Assembly: GCA_024762655.1 (NCBI GenBank)
Contig: JANTHB010000029.1
Span: forward strand, 1-38,608
Reading direction: 5' to 3'
DNA: 38,608 nucleotides
DNA from: Bacteroidales bacterium
GTDB lineage: Bacteria; Bacteroidota; Bacteroidia; Bacteroidales; VadinHA17
Below the pieces are notes generated by a model, which was given only the letters and a program-made list of their open reading frames with translations, ran no database searches and was not told the DNA's origin. Of this stretch, positions 598 to 38,608 are shown one piece after another. The position numbers and the translations under genes are program-made. The first letter of the stretch is position 1, and each line of letters starts with the position of its first letter.

Positions 598-684
598 TGG
601 TACCCAGGGCCGGAATCGAACCGGCACGGTATTACTACCACTGGTTTTTGAGACCAGCGCGTCTACCAATTCCGCCACCTGGGC
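598..684 (-). tRNA. tRNA-Leu (anticodon CAA)
   Basis: The minus strand folds as an 87-nt type II tRNA. The acceptor stem is GCCCAGG/CCTGGGT, followed by discriminator A and an encoded CCA (598-600). The D-arm is GGCGGAATTGGTAGACGC. The anticodon stem CTGGT/ACCAG encloses loop CTCAAAA, giving anticodon CAA. A long variable arm and the T-arm GGTTCGATTCC are present. The long variable arm and anticodon both indicate leucine (UUG codons). Confidence 0.95.
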
Positions 685-14870: not shown

Positions 14871-15557
14871 TTATTGAAGCACAAAAACGATTGGAATGGT
14901 GTAAGCCACCCGGACAGCTTTTCCACGTTGTTTTCCGGGCTTCCACTTCGGAGAAGATTTTACCACCCGTATAGCTTCAGCATCCAGTGCGGGGTCAACA
15001 CCACGGACAACCTTGACATTGTCAACCACCCCATTGGGTTCCACTACAAACTGTACGTAAACGCGTCCGCTGATTCCGTTTTCGGCGGCGATTTCCGGAT
15101 ATTTTAGTCTTTTGGCTACCCAGGTACGGAAAGCATCCACTCCTTTTCCCTGAAAACTGGGCATGTCTTCAACAATAAAGAATATTTCTGAGCCGGCATC
15201 GTCCGATTCATCAGCCACTTCATAGTCGATCTCTTTGACTTCCGTATTAATATCTGCTTCCAGGTCATTCAACTGTAGCTCATCCTGCAGATTTACATCA
15301 TTTTTTACGATTTGCAGGATCTCTGTTACCTTTGGAGGTTCCGGAGGTTTGGGTTTGGGCTTTTCCTGACGGGTGATAGGTATAATTTCCTGTTCAGCCT
15401 GTTCAGCCTGATTGGTGTCATATTCATTTTCCTTAAAACCCGAACTGGTCCATTCGAAGGCTATGAGAATTAATGAAATGGCAACTACCAAACCAATTTC
15501 AAAAAAAATACTGCTTCTCTTTTCGAGATTTACCTTGTCTGCTTTTTTAAGTTCCAT
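14871..15557 (-). CDS. Energy transducer TonB (copy 1)
   Basis: A 228-residue periplasm-spanning protein that passes proton-motive energy from an ExbBD-type complex to TonB-dependent outer-membrane receptors. A single membrane anchor lies at about 19-37, a proline linker (KPKPKPPEPP, about 65-76) follows, and the C-terminal TonB domain (about 130-228) contains FRTWVAKRLKYPEIAAENG and GRVYVQFVVEPNG. The frame is open to 15614, but I choose the ATG at 15555-15557 (MELKKADKVN) because it aligns end to end with the neighbouring paralogue. The two proteins are about 82% identical over 228 residues by hand count. A terminator follows. Confidence 0.92.
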   Translation of the reverse strand: MELKKADKVNLEKRSSIFFEIGLVVAISLILIAFEWTSSGFKENEYDTNQAEQAEQEIIPITRQEKPKPKPPEPPKVTEILQIVKNDVNLQDELQLNDLEADINTEVKEIDYEVADESDDAGSEIFFIVEDMPSFQGKGVDAFRTWVAKRLKYPEIAAENGISGRVYVQFVVEPNGVVDNVKVVRGVDPALDAEAIRVVKSSPKWKPGKQRGKAVRVAYTIPIVFVLQ

Positions 15558-15729
15558 GCGTGATAAAATTTGGGGGATAAAAGTAATGAAATAAAAATAT
15601 AATATCAAACTCACATAATTTTTTTATATAGTGGCCAGAAAAAAATCATCCAGAGGTTTTTATAAAGTAAATCCAACCTGATTTCTGGAGATAATCCTGC
15701 TTACCGGCCAGCCGTCTTTGACACTTTTA

Positions 15730-16416
15730 TTACTGCAGTACGAAAACGATCGGGATGGTGTATGCTACACGTACCGGTTTACCACGTTGTTTTCCGGGGG
15801 TCCATCGCGGAGACGACTTGACTACACGCACAGCCTCGGCATCTAGTGACGGATCAACACCACGTATCACTTTAACGTTGTCTACATGTCCATCCGGTTC
15901 AACGACAAATTGTACGTATACACGACCCTGGATGCCGTTTTCGGCGGCGATTTCCGGATATTTTAATCTTTTGGCTACCCAATCCCGAAAGGCATTGACA
16001 TCTTTTCCCTGAAAAGTTGGCATGTCTTCGACAATAAAGAATATTTCACCGTCACCCTGATCTTCTTCTTCCTGAACGTCATAATTGATCGGTTTGACTT
16101 CGGTGTTGATATCAGCCTCCAGATCCTGTAATTGTAATTCGTCATCTAATTTTACATTGTTATTTACAATCTGCAGAATTTCTGTCACTTTGGGAGGTTC
16201 CGGCGGTTTGGGTTTGGGTTTTTCCTGCCGGGTGATGGGAATAATCTCTTGTTCAGCCTGCTCTGCCTGGTTGACTTCGAATTCGTTGGTCTTGAATCCG
16301 GTACTTGTCCATTCGAATGCGATTAGCACCAATGAAATCGAAACGATAAGACCAATTTCAAAGAAAATGGACGACCGTTTTTCAAGATCCGCTCTGTCTG
16401 TTTTTTTCTTTTCCAT
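15730..16416 (-). CDS. Energy transducer TonB (copy 2)
   Basis: A 228-residue TonB-family protein of the same length and layout as the gene 172 bp downstream: anchor ~19-37, linker KPKPKPPEPP, and a C-terminal domain with FRDWVAKRLKYPEIAAENG. Differences cluster in the first ten residues and in the acidic stretch around 107-124 (INYDVQEEEDQGDGE against IDYEVADESDDAGSE), while the linker and the C-terminal 80 residues are nearly the same. This is a recent tandem duplication. No clear terminator separates the copies, so a joint transcript is possible. No exbB, exbD or receptor gene is in the window. Confidence 0.92.
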   Translation of the reverse strand: MEKKKTDRADLEKRSSIFFEIGLIVSISLVLIAFEWTSTGFKTNEFEVNQAEQAEQEIIPITRQEKPKPKPPEPPKVTEILQIVNNNVKLDDELQLQDLEADINTEVKPINYDVQEEEDQGDGEIFFIVEDMPTFQGKDVNAFRDWVAKRLKYPEIAAENGIQGRVYVQFVVEPDGHVDNVKVIRGVDPSLDAEAVRVVKSSPRWTPGKQRGKPVRVAYTIPIVFVLQ

Positions 16417-16646: not shown

Positions 16647-16720
16647 GGGGGCTTAGCTCAGTTGGCTAGAGCGTCTGGCTGGCAGCCAGAAGGTCAGGGG
16701 TTCGACTCCCCTAGTCTCCA
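16647..16720 (+). tRNA. tRNA-Ala (anticodon GGC)
   Basis: A 74-nt cloverleaf. The acceptor GGGGGCT pairs with AGTCTCC and includes the G3:U70 wobble that marks alanine tRNAs. The D-arm is AGCTCAGTTGGCTAGAGC. The anticodon stem TCTGG/CCAGA encloses CTGGCAG, giving anticodon GGC, and the T-arm is CAGGGGTTCGACTCCCCT. The 3' CCA is not encoded. Confidence 0.96.
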
Positions 16721-16726
16721 CAATCA

Positions 16727-30282: not shown

Positions 30283-31557
30283 TCAGGTTAAATCAAAACC
30301 AATATCTTTTCTGTAATATTTTTTTTCAAAGTTTATTTTCTCGGCTAATTCGTATGAGCGGCGCAAGGCTTCCCCAGGATCTTTTCCCACCGAACTGATC
30401 GCCAGGACTCGTCCGCCGTTGGTGACAACATCTCCGTTCCTTTCTTTGGTGCCGGCATGAAAAATCACGGAAGTCTCGGGTATTTTGTCCGGGAAAGTGA
30501 TCTTTTTCCCTTTTTTATACGCTTCCGGATAGCCTCCGGATACCAACATAACCGTTGCGACCGTGTCAGGGATGATTTGCATGTCTTGTTGAGAGAGGTT
30601 CCTGGTGGCAACTGCCTGGAAAAGGGGAACAATATCGGAATGGAGCCTGGGGATTACCACCTCTGCCTCCGGATCTCCCATACGTACATTGTATTCCACA
30701 ACATAAGGGTCTCCTTTGACATTCATCAGGCCAAAATAAATAAAACCCCTGTAGATGATGTTGCGCTCCTGCAACCCGCTGATGGTGGGCTCGATAATTC
30801 TTTCTTCCACTTTTTCCATAAAGGCACTGTCGGCAAAGGGTACGGGTGAAACAGCGCCCATACCACCGGTGTTCAGTCCGGTGTCTCCCTCGCCGATACG
30901 TTTGTAGTCTTTGGCTTCGGGCAGCAGCATATAGGATTCTCCGTCAGTAAGAACGAAAACGGAGCATTCAATGCCGCTTAAAAATTCTTCTATGACCACG
31001 GTCTTCCCGGCCTCTCCGAATTTCCCGTGAAACATCTCTTTCAGCCTTTTTACGGCTTCTTCGTAATCATCCAGGATCAGGACCCCTTTTCCTGCAGCCA
31101 GGCCGTCAGCTTTCAGAACATAAGGAGGTTTCAGCTCATGAAGAAATTCTTTGGCTTTGTTAAGCTCTTTAGCGGTGAAACTCTGATAACGGGCGGTAGG
31201 GATATCATTCTCCTGCATGAAATCCTTGGCAAAAGCTTTGCTTCCCTCCAGCAGAGCTCCCTCTCGCGAAGGTCCGATGATAAAAAGATTGGAAAACCGG
31301 TACTGACTTCTGAAATAATCATAAATACCTTTGACCAAAGGACCTTCGGGGCCTATTACCAGCATCTGGATATCATGGGAAAGGATAAATGATTCAACGG
31401 CCGGAAAATCTTCCGGCTTAAGGGGGATATTCTCTCCCAGTTGTGCGGTCCCTGCATTTCCAGGGGCTATATACAGATTGTCAGTAAGTGGACTCTGAGC
31501 TATTTTCCATGCCAGGGTATGCTCCCGGCCTCCTGATCCTAATACAAGAATATTCAT
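30283..31557 (-). CDS. purD: Phosphoribosylamine-glycine ligase
   Basis: A 424-residue ATP-grasp enzyme making GAR from phosphoribosylamine, glycine and ATP, step two of purine synthesis. The N-domain starts MNILVLGSGGREHTLAW, GPEGPLVKGI follows, and the ATP-grasp part contains PPYVLKADGLAAGKGV, TGGMGAVSP and the metal-binding RMGDPEAEV. Length and motifs are standard. No promoter matching the consensus is obvious upstream. The DUF6427 gene follows 4 bases later. purQ is 7 kb away on the same strand, so the two purine genes are not one operon. Confidence 0.96.
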   Translation of the reverse strand: MNILVLGSGGREHTLAWKIAQSPLTDNLYIAPGNAGTAQLGENIPLKPEDFPAVESFILSHDIQMLVIGPEGPLVKGIYDYFRSQYRFSNLFIIGPSREGALLEGSKAFAKDFMQENDIPTARYQSFTAKELNKAKEFLHELKPPYVLKADGLAAGKGVLILDDYEEAVKRLKEMFHGKFGEAGKTVVIEEFLSGIECSVFVLTDGESYMLLPEAKDYKRIGEGDTGLNTGGMGAVSPVPFADSAFMEKVEERIIEPTISGLQERNIIYRGFIYFGLMNVKGDPYVVEYNVRMGDPEAEVVIPRLHSDIVPLFQAVATRNLSQQDMQIIPDTVATVMLVSGGYPEAYKKGKKITFPDKIPETSVIFHAGTKERNGDVVTNGGRVLAISSVGKDPGEALRRSYELAEKINFEKKYYRKDIGFDLT

Positions 31558-31720: not shown

Positions 31721-32614
31721 TTATTTCATAATAAAATTAGGCAACTTATAAATGAAGATGATCTCATGCGATCCGCTGGTCTGAGTCCGCAAATCAGACA
31801 TGGCAATGTCGTAAGCATAACCGAAGAGTATACTCTTGTTCTGATACCCCACCTGGATGCTGAGAGCATCCTGTGTCCGGTAGGAGAGTCCGAAATTGAC
31901 GGTTTTAAAGAGCACGGAATGCAGATTGATATCCGCCTGAAAAACCCCCGCTTCCAGAAATTTCAACAATACGGATGGTTGCAGCAGGACATTGTCACTG
32001 ATCTCAAAATTGTATCCGCCGTTAAAGTAATAATGTCTGACATTCTTTTGCTGTTCGGTGATCCCTTCGGTCCCCAGGTTGATTTTTCCCTGGAAGAGCT
32101 GGAAGACACTTATCCCCAGAAAATATTTGTTATCATACAACAAAACCCCGAAATTGGCATCCGGAACAATTTTTTTATTCCCTCCGAGCAGCACGGCGTC
32201 ATTGGGGTCTTCCATGTTAAGGGAAGACTTATCCAGATAATACTGGTAAAATGTCGGTGATAGTCCCAATGAGAGCTTCGGTCCTTCTTCGCTTAAAGGG
32301 ATATGATAAGCGTATGTGGCTTCCATACCGGTCTGACGCAGAGGTCCCTGCATATAATTAAATATCCTTACCCCGACGCCCATCCGGTCGGCAACGGTGA
32401 CATGCCCGCTCAGGGCCTGCACGGAAGGGGTGCCATTGATGCCTACCCAGAATTTACGGAAACTCAAAGAAACAGGCATATAGTCCTGACTGCCTGCTGC
32501 CGCCGGGTTGATCTGGTACAGATCAAAATGGTACTGGGCATTCAGAGGTATCTGTTGCGTAAAAGCCGTGGTTGAAAAAACCGTAAGGATGAGGAGGATA
32601 AATATCTTTTTCAT
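31721..32614 (-). CDS. PorP/SprF-family outer-membrane protein
   Basis: A 297-residue beta-barrel of the T9SS-linked PorP/SprF family. The signal peptide is MKKIFILLILTVFSTTAFTQ, and the family opening YHFDLYQINPAAAGSQDY is clear, followed by barrel strands (VSLSFRKFWVGING, FNYMQGPLRQTGMEATYAYH, GVLLYDNKYFLGISVFQLF). The ATG at 32612-32614 is chosen because it begins the signal; the frame reaches 32641. It lies 30 bases downstream of the SprB-repeat adhesin, the same order as sprB-sprF in gliding flavobacteria, where SprF is needed to bring SprB to the surface. A partner role for the neighbouring adhesin is therefore likely. Confidence 0.92.
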   Translation of the reverse strand: MKKIFILLILTVFSTTAFTQQIPLNAQYHFDLYQINPAAAGSQDYMPVSLSFRKFWVGINGTPSVQALSGHVTVADRMGVGVRIFNYMQGPLRQTGMEATYAYHIPLSEEGPKLSLGLSPTFYQYYLDKSSLNMEDPNDAVLLGGNKKIVPDANFGVLLYDNKYFLGISVFQLFQGKINLGTEGITEQQKNVRHYYFNGGYNFEISDNVLLQPSVLLKFLEAGVFQADINLHSVLFKTVNFGLSYRTQDALSIQVGYQNKSILFGYAYDIAMSDLRTQTSGSHEIIFIYKLPNFIMK

Positions 32615-32644
32615 GGGAATGGAGTTTATATGCATGACCATAAA

Positions 32645-35600
32645 TTATTTGATAATATTCACGGTTCCGGAATATTTCTTTTCGCCGGGGCCGAGGTCTA
32701 TAATATAATAATAGGTACCGGCAGGCAGCGATTTCCCGTCAAGCGTACCGTCCCAGGGCTGGGTGTATCCTTTCGAAGAGAATACCTGCGTCCCCCATGA
32801 GTTAAAGACTTTCACCACACAGTTGGGGTAAGACTGGATGCCCCGGATGTTCCAGACTTCGTTGGTGCCGTCACCGTTGGGGCTGAAAGCATCATAGATG
32901 ACCAGCCCGCAATTATCCGCCTCGGTGACTTCGGCATCTTTCGAGACGGGGCCGCAATGGTTTTGGTCATCTACCGTGATGGTGTATGTTCCAACATCCA
33001 GGGATGTGAAGTTTCCGGCATTTGTACTGCTGTCGATAAGGGCCCCCTGATCATTTAATAATTGGAACGTAAGTACTCCGGTACCGCCGGTAGCCGTTAC
33101 CATAATCGACCCCTGGCTCTCACCCGGACAGGTAGGATCTATGGCAGGATCACCGAGGGTAATGGGATCGGGTTCGGATAGGAGTTCGGTGCTGCCAAAG
33201 GTAACACAACCGTTGGGGTCCCGGACGGCAATGTCATAATTACCTCCTCCCAGGTTGCTGAACAGGCTGTCTGCCTGGTAAGTGGTGCCTCCGTCAATAG
33301 AATAGGAGTAAGGTTCTATCCCTCCTGAAGCAAGGATAACAATGGCTCCGTCTGCTTCACCATGACAGGAAACAGGGGTGATATTTACATTATCAATTAC
33401 CACACCCGGAGGATCATTGAGTGTGACAGTGTTCCCGGCAATACTACAACCGCCGGCATCCAGGACAGCAATATCATAATCGCCGGCACCCAGAGCAGTA
33501 AAAGTACTGTCACTCTGATACGTGGTTCCTCCGTCTGTGGAATAGGCATAAGGCTTGGTGCCTCCCGAAGCATGGATAACGAGGGCTCCGTTTGTACTGC
33601 CCGGACATCCGCTGATTTCCGTTACGGAGACCGAATCAATCAGTAATGCTTCCGGCTCTGTAACGGTAAAGGTTGAATCCCAGGTACAGTTATGGCTGTC
33701 AGTAACATTTATCGTGTAATCCCCGCCGGAAATACCCGTAATGTCTTTCGTTGTGATATTTCCGGGTGTCCACAGGTAGGTGTAAGGGACGGTACCCCCG
33801 GTAACAGTAAGAATGATCGAACCATCCTGTTGTCCCGGACAACTAACATCCTGGACCACAGCCGTAACAACCAGTGGGTCGGGTTGAGACAGGCTCTCTG
33901 TGGCCTCGGCGGTACATCCGTTATCATCGGTAACGGTAACAGTATAGGTGCCGGCTTCCAGGAAAGAAGCCTTTTTAGTGGTTTGGTGGCCGGGGTCATC
34001 CCATAGATAATGATAGGTGTCTGTGCCTCCTGTGGGCATGGCCTCCAGCTCCCCGGTGAGTTCCCCGTTACAAAGAATCGTGTTATTGGTCTGAATTGTA
34101 ACGGTAAGGGCCTCCGGCTCAGTAATTTGTATGTTCAATTGTTGTTCCACGCAACCTCCGTTGTCGGAAATGGTAACATTGTAGTAACCCGGTGGCAGGT
34201 CTGCAATATCTTCCGTATTCGCTGTGAAGCCTCCTGAACCGGTCCAGGAGAAAGTGTAAGGCAACCATCCTCCAGAGACGGTGATATCTATTTTCCCGTC
34301 ATTCATTCCTTTGCAGGTGATGTTTTCCACATTGGTCAGGGCGATAGTAAGCGCCTGAGCCGGTTGGGATATTGTAGCGGAAGTGGAAGTGCTTCTGGAG
34401 TCAAGGTTGTCTGTCACATTAACATAGTAGGTTCCGGCGGGAACATCCCGGAGAGACGGGGAATTTAATCCGATAGGAGTTCCGATGGAATTGGTCCATT
34501 GATAAGTATAAGAGCCCGAGCCGCCGGTGACAGCCACATGGGCATAACCGTCGCTGTTCCCGTAACAGGTAATATTTTTTATAGAATCAATCGTAGCAAC
34601 CAAGGCAGTCTTATCTTCTACAACAAACTGTGTGTCTGCCGTACAACTGTTATGGTCGGTAACCGTCACAGTGTAAGTTCCTCCATTGTCCAGGTTGGAG
34701 AGGTCCTGACTGGTTGAACTGAAACCGGAAGGTCCTTCCCAGTAGTAGGTGAAATCAGGAGTGCCTCCTGAGACAACCAGATCAATGGCCCCGTTTGCTC
34801 CGGGGGGCCGAATGATGTCCGTAACAACAGATCCTCCAAAAGTGATGGGATCGGGTTCCGGAACATTGATGGTGGTGTCTTTGATACAGCCGTGATCATC
34901 GGTGACACGCAGCGTGTAGTCTCCGGCGGTAAGGCCGGTCTGGTCTTCCTGGGTCTGTGCTAATCCGGAGCCGTTGGAGGTGCTCCATAAATAGGTATAA
35001 GGGGGGGTCCCTCCTGCGACGGAAATGTCTATAGCCCCGTTGCTTCCGTTTGCACACGACACATCTGTCACGACAGCATTAACGTAGATGGGGTCGGGCT
35101 GGGTGATGGTGAAATAAACAGAATCGGTTTTATTGAAAGCATCGGTCACCTTAACGCCGTAATCCCCTGCCGGCACATTGGTCAGGGTCGAATCCGCCGA
35201 GCCGTCATCATAACTCCATTCGTAGGTGTAAGGATAAGTGCCGAAATAGGGGGTCACCGTGGCAGAACCGTCAGAACCTCCGTTACAGGAGACGTCCTGT
35301 TGGTCGGTGATGGCGATTTTGAAGGGGATGGAGTATTTGGCGACGAAGCCGTCTCTTCCCCCGGCATTTGAATATGTATCATTGCCGATATTCAAACTTG
35401 TAGATTCAAAGTATCCGCCAATAACTCCGTTTCCCTTTCCATCAATAGCAATACCTTGCCCTCTATCGTGCGCATCCCCTTGAGCTGATAACGCACTAAC
35501 TATTTCCCCTTGCGTAGTAAGGGTTCCTATTAAAATATCATTGTTGGAAGTTGAGTTTGTTGTAATGGTATCATTGTTAAAAATCAATGTTCCGGAAAAG

Positions 35601-36727
35601 TATCCGGTGAATGCCAGTACATTTTGGTTAATGCTGACTTCGTACCCGATATCATTACCAATATCCCCTATAGTGGTTTTGTTTAATAATCTACCGTCTT
35701 TATTGTACTTAACAACAAGAATATCATATCCCCCATGAGAAATAACAGGAGTTCCGTCAAAAAGGGCTGCACCGGTACTATCAACGTATGCTGTGCCGCT
35801 AAAATAACCGATAAGATAGTAATTACTAAAAGGATCCGTTACTGCATTATATCCTCTGTCAAAACCTGTACCACCAATGGTACGGACCCAGATATCAGAG
35901 AATGTGTTCTGATCGATGTTGACAAATGCTATATCATCTTTCCCCTGACTAACCAAAGTATCCGTCGAAAGAAACATAGAGTCTCTATAAAAACCGGACA
36001 ACATTACTGTTCCGTCATTGGCAATTGCGATACTATTAAATTTTGTTTTATCACTGGATGTAACCAGATGTCCTGAAGAAATGTAATCAGCAGTTTCATT
36101 GAATTTTGCAATAAAAGGATTAGCTGTAGCTTTTTGAACCACAAGGGTGTCTGAAGCAAACATTAATGAGTCCTCAAAAAAGCCAACAATATAGATTGTG
36201 CCATCAATTGAGGAGGTAATGCTATTAGCTCTGTCTAAACCATTGCCCTCAGCAACATTCTTGGCCCATAAAACATTTCCGTTTTGATCAACTTTTGCAA
36301 TAAAAACATCTTCGCTGTTGTTATATGAATGCAATGTATAAGAATCAAAAACGGCTCCTTCAGTGATAGACCCCGTTAGGAGTATATCCCCATTATTATT
36401 CAAAAATATATCCTTTGGTACATCACTTCCGGGGCCACCAAATTGCTTATTCCAGATTATTGTACCGTCTGAGGAAAACTTTGTTAATAATATATCAGAA
36501 CTACCCATAGAAGTAAAAGTTTCACTTCCTATGGTTACGGTTCCCTCGAAATAGGTATACGAAATAAAAGCATCGTCCGGAGGGTAATACTTTATTTTAT
36601 TGACTTTAACATCAAGGCTACTTGAATAGTTATATGACCAAGACCATTCTTGAGCAAAAGTGGGGGATATCGCAAAAATGAAAAATATGAGCCCTCCAAA
36701 AGCAGAAAGGTTTATAACTTTTTTCAT
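32645..36727 (-). CDS. Giant adhesin with SprB repeats and T9SS type B C-terminus
   Basis: A 1360-residue surface protein. The signal peptide ends near residue 25 (SPTFA|QE). Residues ~30-465 are repeated beta-propeller-like blades (SSDILLTKFSSDGTIIWNKQ, EDVFIAKVDQNGNVLWAKN). About ten SprB-type repeats of ~80 residues cover ~470-1270, each with a core such as DVSC..G.DG.I...V.GGT.PY.Y.W. The last ~87 residues (FSPNGDGTNEVWNI, VKVFNSWGTQVFSS, GTYYYIIDLG) are the gliding-associated C-terminal domain, a type B T9SS sorting signal. Repeat 3 lacks the usual Cys, and repeats 8-9 use STDGGTTYQ/SIDGGTTYQ. Surface adhesion is likely; gliding itself is not shown. The PorP/SprF gene follows. Confidence 0.94.
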   Translation of the reverse strand: MKKVINLSAFGGLIFFIFAISPTFAQEWSWSYNYSSSLDVKVNKIKYYPPDDAFISYTYFEGTVTIGSETFTSMGSSDILLTKFSSDGTIIWNKQFGGPGSDVPKDIFLNNNGDILLTGSITEGAVFDSYTLHSYNNSEDVFIAKVDQNGNVLWAKNVAEGNGLDRANSITSSIDGTIYIVGFFEDSLMFASDTLVVQKATANPFIAKFNETADYISSGHLVTSSDKTKFNSIAIANDGTVMLSGFYRDSMFLSTDTLVSQGKDDIAFVNIDQNTFSDIWVRTIGGTGFDRGYNAVTDPFSNYYLIGYFSGTAYVDSTGAALFDGTPVISHGGYDILVVKYNKDGRLLNKTTIGDIGNDIGYEVSINQNVLAFTGYFSGTLIFNNDTITTNSTSNNDILIGTLTTQGEIVSALSAQGDAHDRGQGIAIDGKGNGVIGGYFESTSLNIGNDTYSNAGGRDGFVAKYSIPFKIAITDQQDVSCNGGSDGSATVTPYFGTYPYTYEWSYDDGSADSTLTNVPAGDYGVKVTDAFNKTDSVYFTITQPDPIYVNAVVTDVSCANGSNGAIDISVAGGTPPYTYLWSTSNGSGLAQTQEDQTGLTAGDYTLRVTDDHGCIKDTTINVPEPDPITFGGSVVTDIIRPPGANGAIDLVVSGGTPDFTYYWEGPSGFSSTSQDLSNLDNGGTYTVTVTDHNSCTADTQFVVEDKTALVATIDSIKNITCYGNSDGYAHVAVTGGSGSYTYQWTNSIGTPIGLNSPSLRDVPAGTYYVNVTDNLDSRSTSTSATISQPAQALTIALTNVENITCKGMNDGKIDITVSGGWLPYTFSWTGSGGFTANTEDIADLPPGYYNVTISDNGGCVEQQLNIQITEPEALTVTIQTNNTILCNGELTGELEAMPTGGTDTYHYLWDDPGHQTTKKASFLEAGTYTVTVTDDNGCTAEATESLSQPDPLVVTAVVQDVSCPGQQDGSIILTVTGGTVPYTYLWTPGNITTKDITGISGGDYTINVTDSHNCTWDSTFTVTEPEALLIDSVSVTEISGCPGSTNGALVIHASGGTKPYAYSTDGGTTYQSDSTFTALGAGDYDIAVLDAGGCSIAGNTVTLNDPPGVVIDNVNITPVSCHGEADGAIVILASGGIEPYSYSIDGGTTYQADSLFSNLGGGNYDIAVRDPNGCVTFGSTELLSEPDPITLGDPAIDPTCPGESQGSIMVTATGGTGVLTFQLLNDQGALIDSSTNAGNFTSLDVGTYTITVDDQNHCGPVSKDAEVTEADNCGLVIYDAFSPNGDGTNEVWNIRGIQSYPNCVVKVFNSWGTQVFSSKGYTQPWDGTLDGKSLPAGTYYYIIDLGPGEKKYSGTVNIIK

Positions 36728-36795
36728 TATTTAATTTTTTTTGTAAATCAATTACTAATTTACCGAAAGTTAAAAAATTTTTTTTACTTAGGGTA

Positions 36796-36803
36796 TATTT
36801 TTG
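36796..36803 (+). promoter_or_regulatory. Candidate -7 element for the sulfotransferase pair
   Basis: TATTTTTG matches TAnnTTTG and lies 65 bases before the GTG start at 36869. The 141-bp gap is so AT-rich that chance matches are likely. Confidence 0.35.
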
Positions 36804-36868
36804 CATGTTTTAGAAAAAAGGTTTGTATTTATAGGGGGAAAAACAGATTTTGACATTCTAATTATTAA

Positions 36869-37771
36869 GTGTTACAAAACATTATACATATCGGATACCC
36901 AAAAACAGGGACCACCTGGTTTCAAAATGAATTATTCCCTTATGTGAAAAACCGGTACTTCGTTTCTCGTACGTCAATTAAAGAATTAGTATATAGCAAA
37001 AATATTTTTAACTATAATAAAGACAAGGTCCTTTCTGAAATAAAATCACCCTTTATAATGAGTTTTGAAGGGTTTAGTGGAAATGTTCATAATTATGGGC
37101 TGAATGGTTATATGATTAAAGAGTTTGCAAACAGGTTATATGAACTTTCTCCAAATGCTATGGTTGTTTTATTTATTCGCAATCAATATGACATTATTGT
37201 TTCTTCATATTTACAGTATGTGAAAAATGGAGGAACGTATGGTATAAAAAATTACTTATATCACCCGGGTTTTGATGATCCGAGGGATTCTTTTCTTTTT
37301 TCATTTGATTTTTTTAAGTATGATAATATAATCAAATTATATTTGGACCTATTTGGAAAATCCAATGTGAAAGTATACCTGTATGAAGATTTTAATGCTT
37401 TGGGCAAAGTGTTTGTTAAAAAATTTATCGAAGACCTGGGGTTAGATTTAGATATAGAGAAGATTAATATGGATTGGGTAAATAATGCTTATAGAAACCG
37501 TACAAGAAAAATAGCCCGGATATTTAATTTATTCAGTAATGAGGGAATGGTTTTCAAATATTATTTGATGCATATTCCGGGGTGGTATGTTTTATCAAAA
37601 AAACTGCTTTTCAGGTTCAATCAAAAAATGGGTGGAAAGATCATTTCTTCAAATATGCTTTTGAACGATAAGGATCGTATATTCATTCACAACTATTTTT
37701 CTCAATCAAATAGGCTATTGATAGAAAAATACAACATTACTGCAATTAAAAAATATAACTATCCCTTATAA
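36869..37771 (+). CDS. Sulfotransferase-like protein (copy 1)
   Basis: A 300-residue PAPS-dependent sulfotransferase-like protein. The 5'-phosphosulfate loop GYPKTGTTW (9-17) sits at the very N-terminus, and the 3'-phosphate motif FIRNQYDIIVSSYLQYVKNG supplies Arg104 and Ser112/113. YLYEDF (near 172) is another family strand. The start is GTG at 36869; the first in-frame ATG is residue 64 and would lose the P-loop, so GTG is needed. Base composition is near 30% GC in sampled lines against about 40-55% upstream, and the next gene is a paralogue 15 bases on. A surface glycan or lipid acceptor is likely but not shown. Confidence 0.85.
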   Translation: MLQNIIHIGYPKTGTTWFQNELFPYVKNRYFVSRTSIKELVYSKNIFNYNKDKVLSEIKSPFIMSFEGFSGNVHNYGLNGYMIKEFANRLYELSPNAMVVLFIRNQYDIIVSSYLQYVKNGGTYGIKNYLYHPGFDDPRDSFLFSFDFFKYDNIIKLYLDLFGKSNVKVYLYEDFNALGKVFVKKFIEDLGLDLDIEKINMDWVNNAYRNRTRKIARIFNLFSNEGMVFKYYLMHIPGWYVLSKKLLFRFNQKMGGKIISSNMLLNDKDRIFIHNYFSQSNRLLIEKYNITAIKKYNYPL

Positions 37772-37786
37772 TTAGAAGCGTAAAAA

Positions 37787-38608
37787 ATGAAAGAAAATAC
37801 GAAGTGCTTTCCAATAATTCATGTTGGTTATCCGAAAACAGCAACAACTTGGTTTAGGGAAAAGTTTTACCCCAATATTAGAAATTATTATTATGTTTCA
37901 CGGAACGACGTGGCAGAAAAAATTTTGGACATAAATGTTTTCAATTTTGAACCATTAAAAACCAGATTATTTTTTCTTCAAAAATATGGTGAAAGAATTG
38001 TTATCTGCGAAGAAAGAATATTGGTAGACCTACAAAAAAAGGGCTTCCTGATAAAAGAAAATGCAAATCGATTAAAATCAGTTTTTCCTGAAGCAAAAGT
38101 TGTGATTTTAATTCGAAACCAATTAGAACTATTTGCATCAAAATATTCTCAATATATTAAGGCTGGTGGGAATTACGGTATTCGAAGATATTTATTTCGT
38201 GAGAAAAAAGATACTTATAGAATGGAAGAATTCTTTTCTAATTATTCCTATGATAAAATAATTGATTATTATTTCTATCTTTTCGGAGAAAACAATGTCT
38301 TTGTATACTTGTACGAGGATTTTGCCGGTAATCCGCATAAAATTATTAACTCGATCGTTAGTGAGTTTGAGTTTGATGTTGATTCAAATCTTGAAACTAA
38401 GTCTGTAAATACGAGGTTAAGATGGTCCCTATTATATCTTTTACGTTTCATCAATTGTTTTACCAGGAAAAGAAGGATAAATAAGTACTATTTAATTCAT
38501 ATTCCTTATTTATTTGAGGTTTCACGGGTAGCATTTCTATACCTAAATAAGTTTAGGATATTCGGGAAGCCCATAAGCACAAAAAAATTATTGGGGAAAA
38601 AGAATTCT
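37787..38608 (+). CDS. Sulfotransferase-like protein (copy 2), cut by window end
   Basis: An open frame of 274 codons from ATG 37787 to the window end with no stop. It begins MKENTKCFPIIHVGYPKTAT and is a paralogue of the gene before it: P-loop GYPKTATTW (14-22, with Ala in place of the usual Gly), then LIRNQLELFASKYSQYIKAGG with Arg110 and Ser118, YLYEDF, and the IHIPYLFEVSR stretch matching MHIPGWYVLSK of copy 1. The AT-rich composition is shared. The gene probably ends shortly beyond the window, as copy 1 has 300 residues. Confidence 0.85.
   Translation, partial: MKENTKCFPIIHVGYPKTATTWFREKFYPNIRNYYYVSRNDVAEKILDINVFNFEPLKTRLFFLQKYGERIVICEERILVDLQKKGFLIKENANRLKSVFPEAKVVILIRNQLELFASKYSQYIKAGGNYGIRRYLFREKKDTYRMEEFFSNYSYDKIIDYYFYLFGENNVFVYLYEDFAGNPHKIINSIVSEFEFDVDSNLETKSVNTRLRWSLLYLLRFINCFTRKRRINKYYLIHIPYLFEVSRVAFLYLNKFRIFGKPISTKKLLGKKNS

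Follow-up and report, generated by a model that had tools for sequence, protein, structure and literature searches.

SprB-like adhesins, the type B cargo of the type IX secretion system (T9SS), resemble the adhesin described here in that they carry a CHU_C signal and SprB repeats and have PorP encoded directly downstream, but the passages on type B cargo in the review PMC10202324 mention neither a sulfotransferase cassette nor an exchangeable propeller head. The streptococcal serine-rich repeat protein islands (PMC7661464) likewise encode a stalked adhesin together with its own variable modification enzymes; there, however, the enzymes are GtfA/GtfB and anchoring is by sortase, whereas our locus has sulfotransferases and the T9SS. 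None of the SecA2/SecY2/Asp accessory export genes occurs among the window ORFs, and the adhesin carries a T9SS signal. The sulfated N-glycan pathway of Halobacterium salinarum (PMC11980604) also places two dedicated sulfotransferases in a protein glycosylation cluster, although the N-glycan is archaeal and the enzymes are annotated as alkaline-phosphatase-domain proteins rather than SULT-like. The general O-glycosylation locus lfg of Bacteroidota (PMC8698959) serves surface protein glycans in the same phylum, but begins with metG instead of purD/PorP/adhesin, and the string 'sulf' is absent from that paper. Finally, the synechan-type clusters encode sulfotransferases with polysaccharide genes, but are cyanobacterial and, in the abstract of PMC8205485, have no tie to a T9SS adhesin. 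In the open-access literature, we found no paper joining the type IX secretion system and sulfotransferases, and no sulfated glycoprotein of Bacteroidota.

The window (38,608 bp) is the complete contig G000:C29 of a fragmented, 99% complete Bacteroidales genome of 3.44 Mb (G000), and its genes, a T9SS adhesin and PorP/SprF among them, are of the Bacteroidota kind. The original prediction took its right end for the edge of an acquired surface-glycan or sulfation region. On our best reading the observation behind it is real but mis-framed: a variable sulfotransferase cassette would begin at the right end, within a conserved purD - PorP - T9SS adhesin locus where exchange reaches into the adhesin gene itself (Table 1).

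Table 1. Features at the right end of the window.
Feature	Position	Strand	Remarks
purD, anchor gene of the locus	30283..31557	-	ORF reading; synteny
PorP/SprF, type B T9SS cargo partner	31721..32641	-	PF11751, 225 bits
Predicted T9SS adhesin, 1360 aa	32645..36727	-	N-terminal head of SBBP-like repeats, stalk of SprB repeats, C-terminal signal of type B (CHU_C)
Conserved stalk and secretion signal	32645..35365	-	GC3 ~54%, ~75% identical to G007
Variable AT-rich adhesin head, residues 1 to ~454	35366..36727	-	GC3 ~31%, ~30% identical to G007
Intergenic region between the divergent adhesin and sulfotransferase genes	36728..36868	.	ORF positions
Predicted sulfotransferase P0001	36869..37771	+	300 aa, GTG start, P-loop GYPKTGTTW
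Predicted sulfotransferase P0002	37787..38608	+	274 aa read, ATG start, 3' end cut by contig end

The two genes beyond the adhesin had been called sulfotransferase-like paralogues, and both proteins match Pfam Sulfotransfer_1 (PF00685) above the cut-off of 22 (29.7 and 25.1 bits) and are 36-38% identical to each other. The GTG start that had been proposed for one of them, P0001, is plausible because an in-frame TAA lies immediately 5' and the P-loop follows a few codons in. The Ala noted in the P-loop of P0002 (GYPKTATTW) is present, but there is nothing unusual about it, as it is the consensus residue in the alignment of the sulfotransferase family. Across 26 homologues, K12/T13 of the 5'-phosphosulfate P-loop are nearly invariant and R104/S112, at the 3'-phosphate site, are invariant. 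PDB matches by sequence were 3rnl and SULTs, and a predicted model of modest quality (pLDDT 61) retrieved 3rnl best in Foldseek (E 5.7e-7), followed by SULTs and heparan 3-O-sulfotransferase. PAPS-dependent sulfotransferase activity is predicted for both proteins. In both enzymes the P-loop starts at about residue 9-14 and an export signal is not apparent; they should therefore act in the cytoplasm, since there is no room for such a signal ahead of the P-loop. The PAPS synthesis genes, for which the original prediction had proposed a search, are present in G000: CysC, CysN and CysD are encoded on other contigs, not adjoining the pair. G000 also encodes a third sulfotransferase (Sulfotransfer_3, 115 bits, C18:45735-46463, L048), which the search with P0001 missed.

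The pair stands out by composition, with a GC content of 29.3/29.7% for P0001/P0002, as had been estimated from sampled lines, and a GC3 of 30/27% against 40-56% in the other scored window genes; taken as a cassette, the two genes have a GC3 20 points below that of purD (29 vs 49). Low GC in many core genes had been named as grounds for dropping the idea, but G000 stretches elsewhere are at 43-50% and low GC is not genome-wide, although there is a second low-GC patch (29-37%) on contig C22 (L049:4948-10115). The drop does not, however, follow the adhesin start where it had been placed: a change-point scan puts the break inside the adhesin ORF at residue 454 (~window 35365), with a GC3 of 0.31 before and 0.54 after (2lnL gain 66, where 200 codon shuffles never gave more than 13), and adhesin codons 1 to ~450 therefore belong to the anomalous stretch too.

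This position also separates two parts of the adhesin that differ in conservation. Between the window and the congener G007, adhesin identity jumps from ~30% to ~75% at residue 450, which coincides with the GC3 change points; in G007 itself GC3 breaks at residue 481 (0.18 to 0.65), and in G361, from another family, at residue 394. A chimeric assembly at the break is unlikely, given that a single intact ORF spans it and that G007 breaks at the same place. The head, named for SBBP beta-propeller repeats after its homologues, is not AT-rich by nature, because the same scan detected no such break in the adhesins of G003:C4, G158 and G301. The foreign composition is not general, since the cassettes of most relatives are ordinary in this respect. 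At the other end of the protein, the CHU_C signal (PF13585, 88 bits), together with the adjoining PorP/SprF, places the adhesin among the predicted type B T9SS cargo. The O-glycosylation motif D(S/T)(A/I/L/V/M/T) occurs 14 times in the adhesin vs 9.3 expected, which is not significant (p 0.08), and a single-sequence model of the head (pLDDT 44) was too poor for use.

The order of genes is shared well beyond this genome. The purD gene is syntenic in G003, G004, G006, G007 and G008, and also in other families; the genus contigs of G003, G004, G006 and G008 stop within or before the adhesin, and that of G007 stops 205 bp upstream of it. A propeller-adhesin divergent from tandem sulfotransferases was found in G181, G438, G299, G301, G198, G425, G140 and G348, and loci with tandem sulfotransferases beside a propeller-adhesin fall into five families besides the window's own (f66, f54, f81, f83 and f25). 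In G301 and G198, purD, PorP, adhesin and sulfotransferases stand in the same order as in the window. G389 has one fused sulfotransferase divergent from its propeller adhesin; the fusion (L164:8074-9840) is 588 aa long and contains two sulfotransferase stretches.

So that the count would not be circular, the head profile was the sole basis for choosing adhesin loci, which were taken in two batches and scanned with four sulfotransferase profiles; an initial order-wide ranking by head was biased, its alignment being mostly of sulfotransferase-linked loci, and the later batches were used instead. A sulfotransferase lies 5' of the adhesin in 9/9 purD-linked loci (those with an assembled 5' flank) vs 7/24 unlinked loci (Fisher 3e-4), a test that is indicative rather than exact, as about five families supply all nine loci, which limits their independence; a Fisher value collapsed by family was built on rough counts and is given no weight. 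G389 was left out of this count because its sulfotransferase had been seen beforehand, and G003:C4, which came from a head search in the genus, was included. It was the first batch that gave rise to the purD rule; in the second batch alone, which was fetched after the idea had formed, sulfotransferases were present at 4/4 purD-linked vs 5/14 unlinked loci. Background stretches totalling 126 kb contained no sulfotransferase match. Across the families of the order, purD-linked T9SS adhesins recurrently have a sulfotransferase cassette on their 5' side.

What fills the position varies, and three cassette types were found at adhesin loci. The first consists of tandem sulfotransferases, as in the window; the second of DUF6625 genes with other sulfotransferases, to which G003:C4 adds GT4 glycosyltransferases; and the third of Sulfotransfer_1 alongside genes of the PqqD, transglutaminase-like, asparagine-synthase, HprK-like and nucleotidyltransferase kinds, which together we take to resemble a lasso-peptide cluster. 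Such lasso-peptide-like genes, in varying combinations of PqqD, Transglut_core3, Asn_synthase, HprK-like and NTP_transf_5, accompany Sulfotransfer_1 5' of a T9SS propeller adhesin in G361, G397, G459, G375, G123 and G213 (L151, L160, L172, L173, L175, L181). TMEM260-like O-mannosyltransferases and polysaccharide deacetylases adjoin the cassettes in G003:C4, G299 and G301, the deacetylase of G299 being assigned by sequence reading only. More generally, relatives have a flippase, glycosyltransferases, TMEM260-like O-mannosyltransferases and additional sulfotransferases as neighbours, and the nearest relatives of P0001 adjoin a flippase and glycosyltransferases at loci that have no adhesin. In the window, two cassette genes are visible and no glycosyltransferase precedes the contig end. 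Other members of the P0001 family adjoin proteins that look radical-SAM-like by eye, at loci that have no propeller adhesin (L102, L103, L106, L107, L108).

P0001-like proteins are rare close to home and scattered farther away: among 117 genomes of the family they were found only in G000 itself and as one weak distant match, and in the order in 45/393 genomes, often as tandem pairs or triplets. In the tree, P0001 falls into a group with two Flavobacteriales sequences of marine origin (support 99/94), and its nearest named relative is from Flavobacteriales; the phylogeny that had been proposed as a check supports an outside origin to this extent, but an AU test does not reject vertical descent of P0001 in the order (p 0.158) and the Flavobacteriales grouping is not significant. 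Recent tandem or local duplication of P0001/P0002 is disfavoured (AU p 0.024 against the window pair as sisters), and a search for viral relatives returned a single weak match. An acquired island would be expected to combine atypical composition with a patchy distribution, and both are found here. With their atypical GC3, their near absence from the family and the closeness of P0001 to Flavobacteriales, both genes look imported. Mobility genes, which the original prediction had proposed to look for, did not turn up among the window ORFs; the contig stops at the right side of the pair, and its final 26 bases have no other copy anywhere in the G000 assembly.

Import as such fits these data, but the arbitrary island edge of the original prediction does not sit well with a recurrent locus and a break inside the adhesin. 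We consider it improbable that AT-rich sulfotransferase DNA landed here by chance, beside a head that merely evolves fast under a codon bias of its own: low GC with atypical GC3, near absence in the family and a window that has no visible glycosyltransferase are what such a landing would leave, but the synteny recurs in other families and the heads of G003:C4, G158 and G301 show no GC3 break. A stronger competitor, though still rather unlikely, is a cassette for a general surface polysaccharide, be it a capsule, an exopolysaccharide or an O-antigen, with the adhesin as a mere neighbour or as an unmodified binder. The nearest relatives of P0001, in their flippase and glycosyltransferase clusters devoid of adhesin, speak for it, as do the sulfated bacterial exopolysaccharides with cluster-encoded sulfotransferases exemplified by synechan (PMC8205485). 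Yet the cassette is tied to the adhesin by its place beside one adhesin type across families and by the compositional break common to both.

Because lasso-peptide-like genes occupy this position in some families, the sulfated target may also be other than a glycan, namely a peptide or small molecule (e.g. a RiPP) displayed with the adhesin or exported near it. PqqD, Transglut_core3, Asn_synthase, HprK-like or NTP_transf_5 near Sulfotransfer_1 by Pfam in G361, G459 and G123, and look-alike genes read from the sequences of G397 and G213, point that way; the window enzymes, however, belong to a different sulfotransferase subfamily, one found with glycosyltransferases, and the window has no such genes, which makes a peptide or small-molecule target a long shot here. 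We give about even chances to a joint reading in which a conserved adhesin locus has received an imported head and a sulfotransferase cassette that serves surface-glycan sulfation.

According to this joint reading, the N-terminal head of the adhesin and the adjoining sulfotransferases would be AT-rich DNA from another lineage, probably transferred together. The simplest route would be recombination inside the gene, where head and stalk of the adhesin meet, by which the native stalk and secretion signal would be kept. CysD/CysN and CysC would make PAPS from sulfate and feed the two cytoplasmic sulfotransferases, for which a lipid-linked glycan would be the natural cytoplasmic substrate; sulfate would most likely be put on its sugars before export. 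After flipping, the glycan would end up on the cell surface, where the adjoining adhesin could well be its carrier, a link to the protein that we infer from the arrangement of the genes. The bacterium may in this way change the binding head of its adhesin and the chemistry of its sulfated coating at one chromosomal spot. More tentatively, and with the odds somewhat against it, the order may hold a single slot at which the ligand-binding head of a T9SS adhesin and a cognate cassette for sulfation or other tailoring are exchanged together, yielding a modular, rapidly switchable, sulfate-decorated adhesin.

The conserved T9SS adhesin-sulfotransferase locus provides defined gene pairs for asking if sulfated surface glycoproteins are made by these bacteria. 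Exchange within the gene, at the border of head and stalk, would be a concrete model for adhesin diversification. Elsewhere in the window, two neighbouring TonB-like paralogues were read from the ORFs at 14871-16416 (- strand), and tRNA genes for Leu (caa) and Ala (ggc) lie at 598-684 (- strand) and 16647-16721 (+ strand), respectively.
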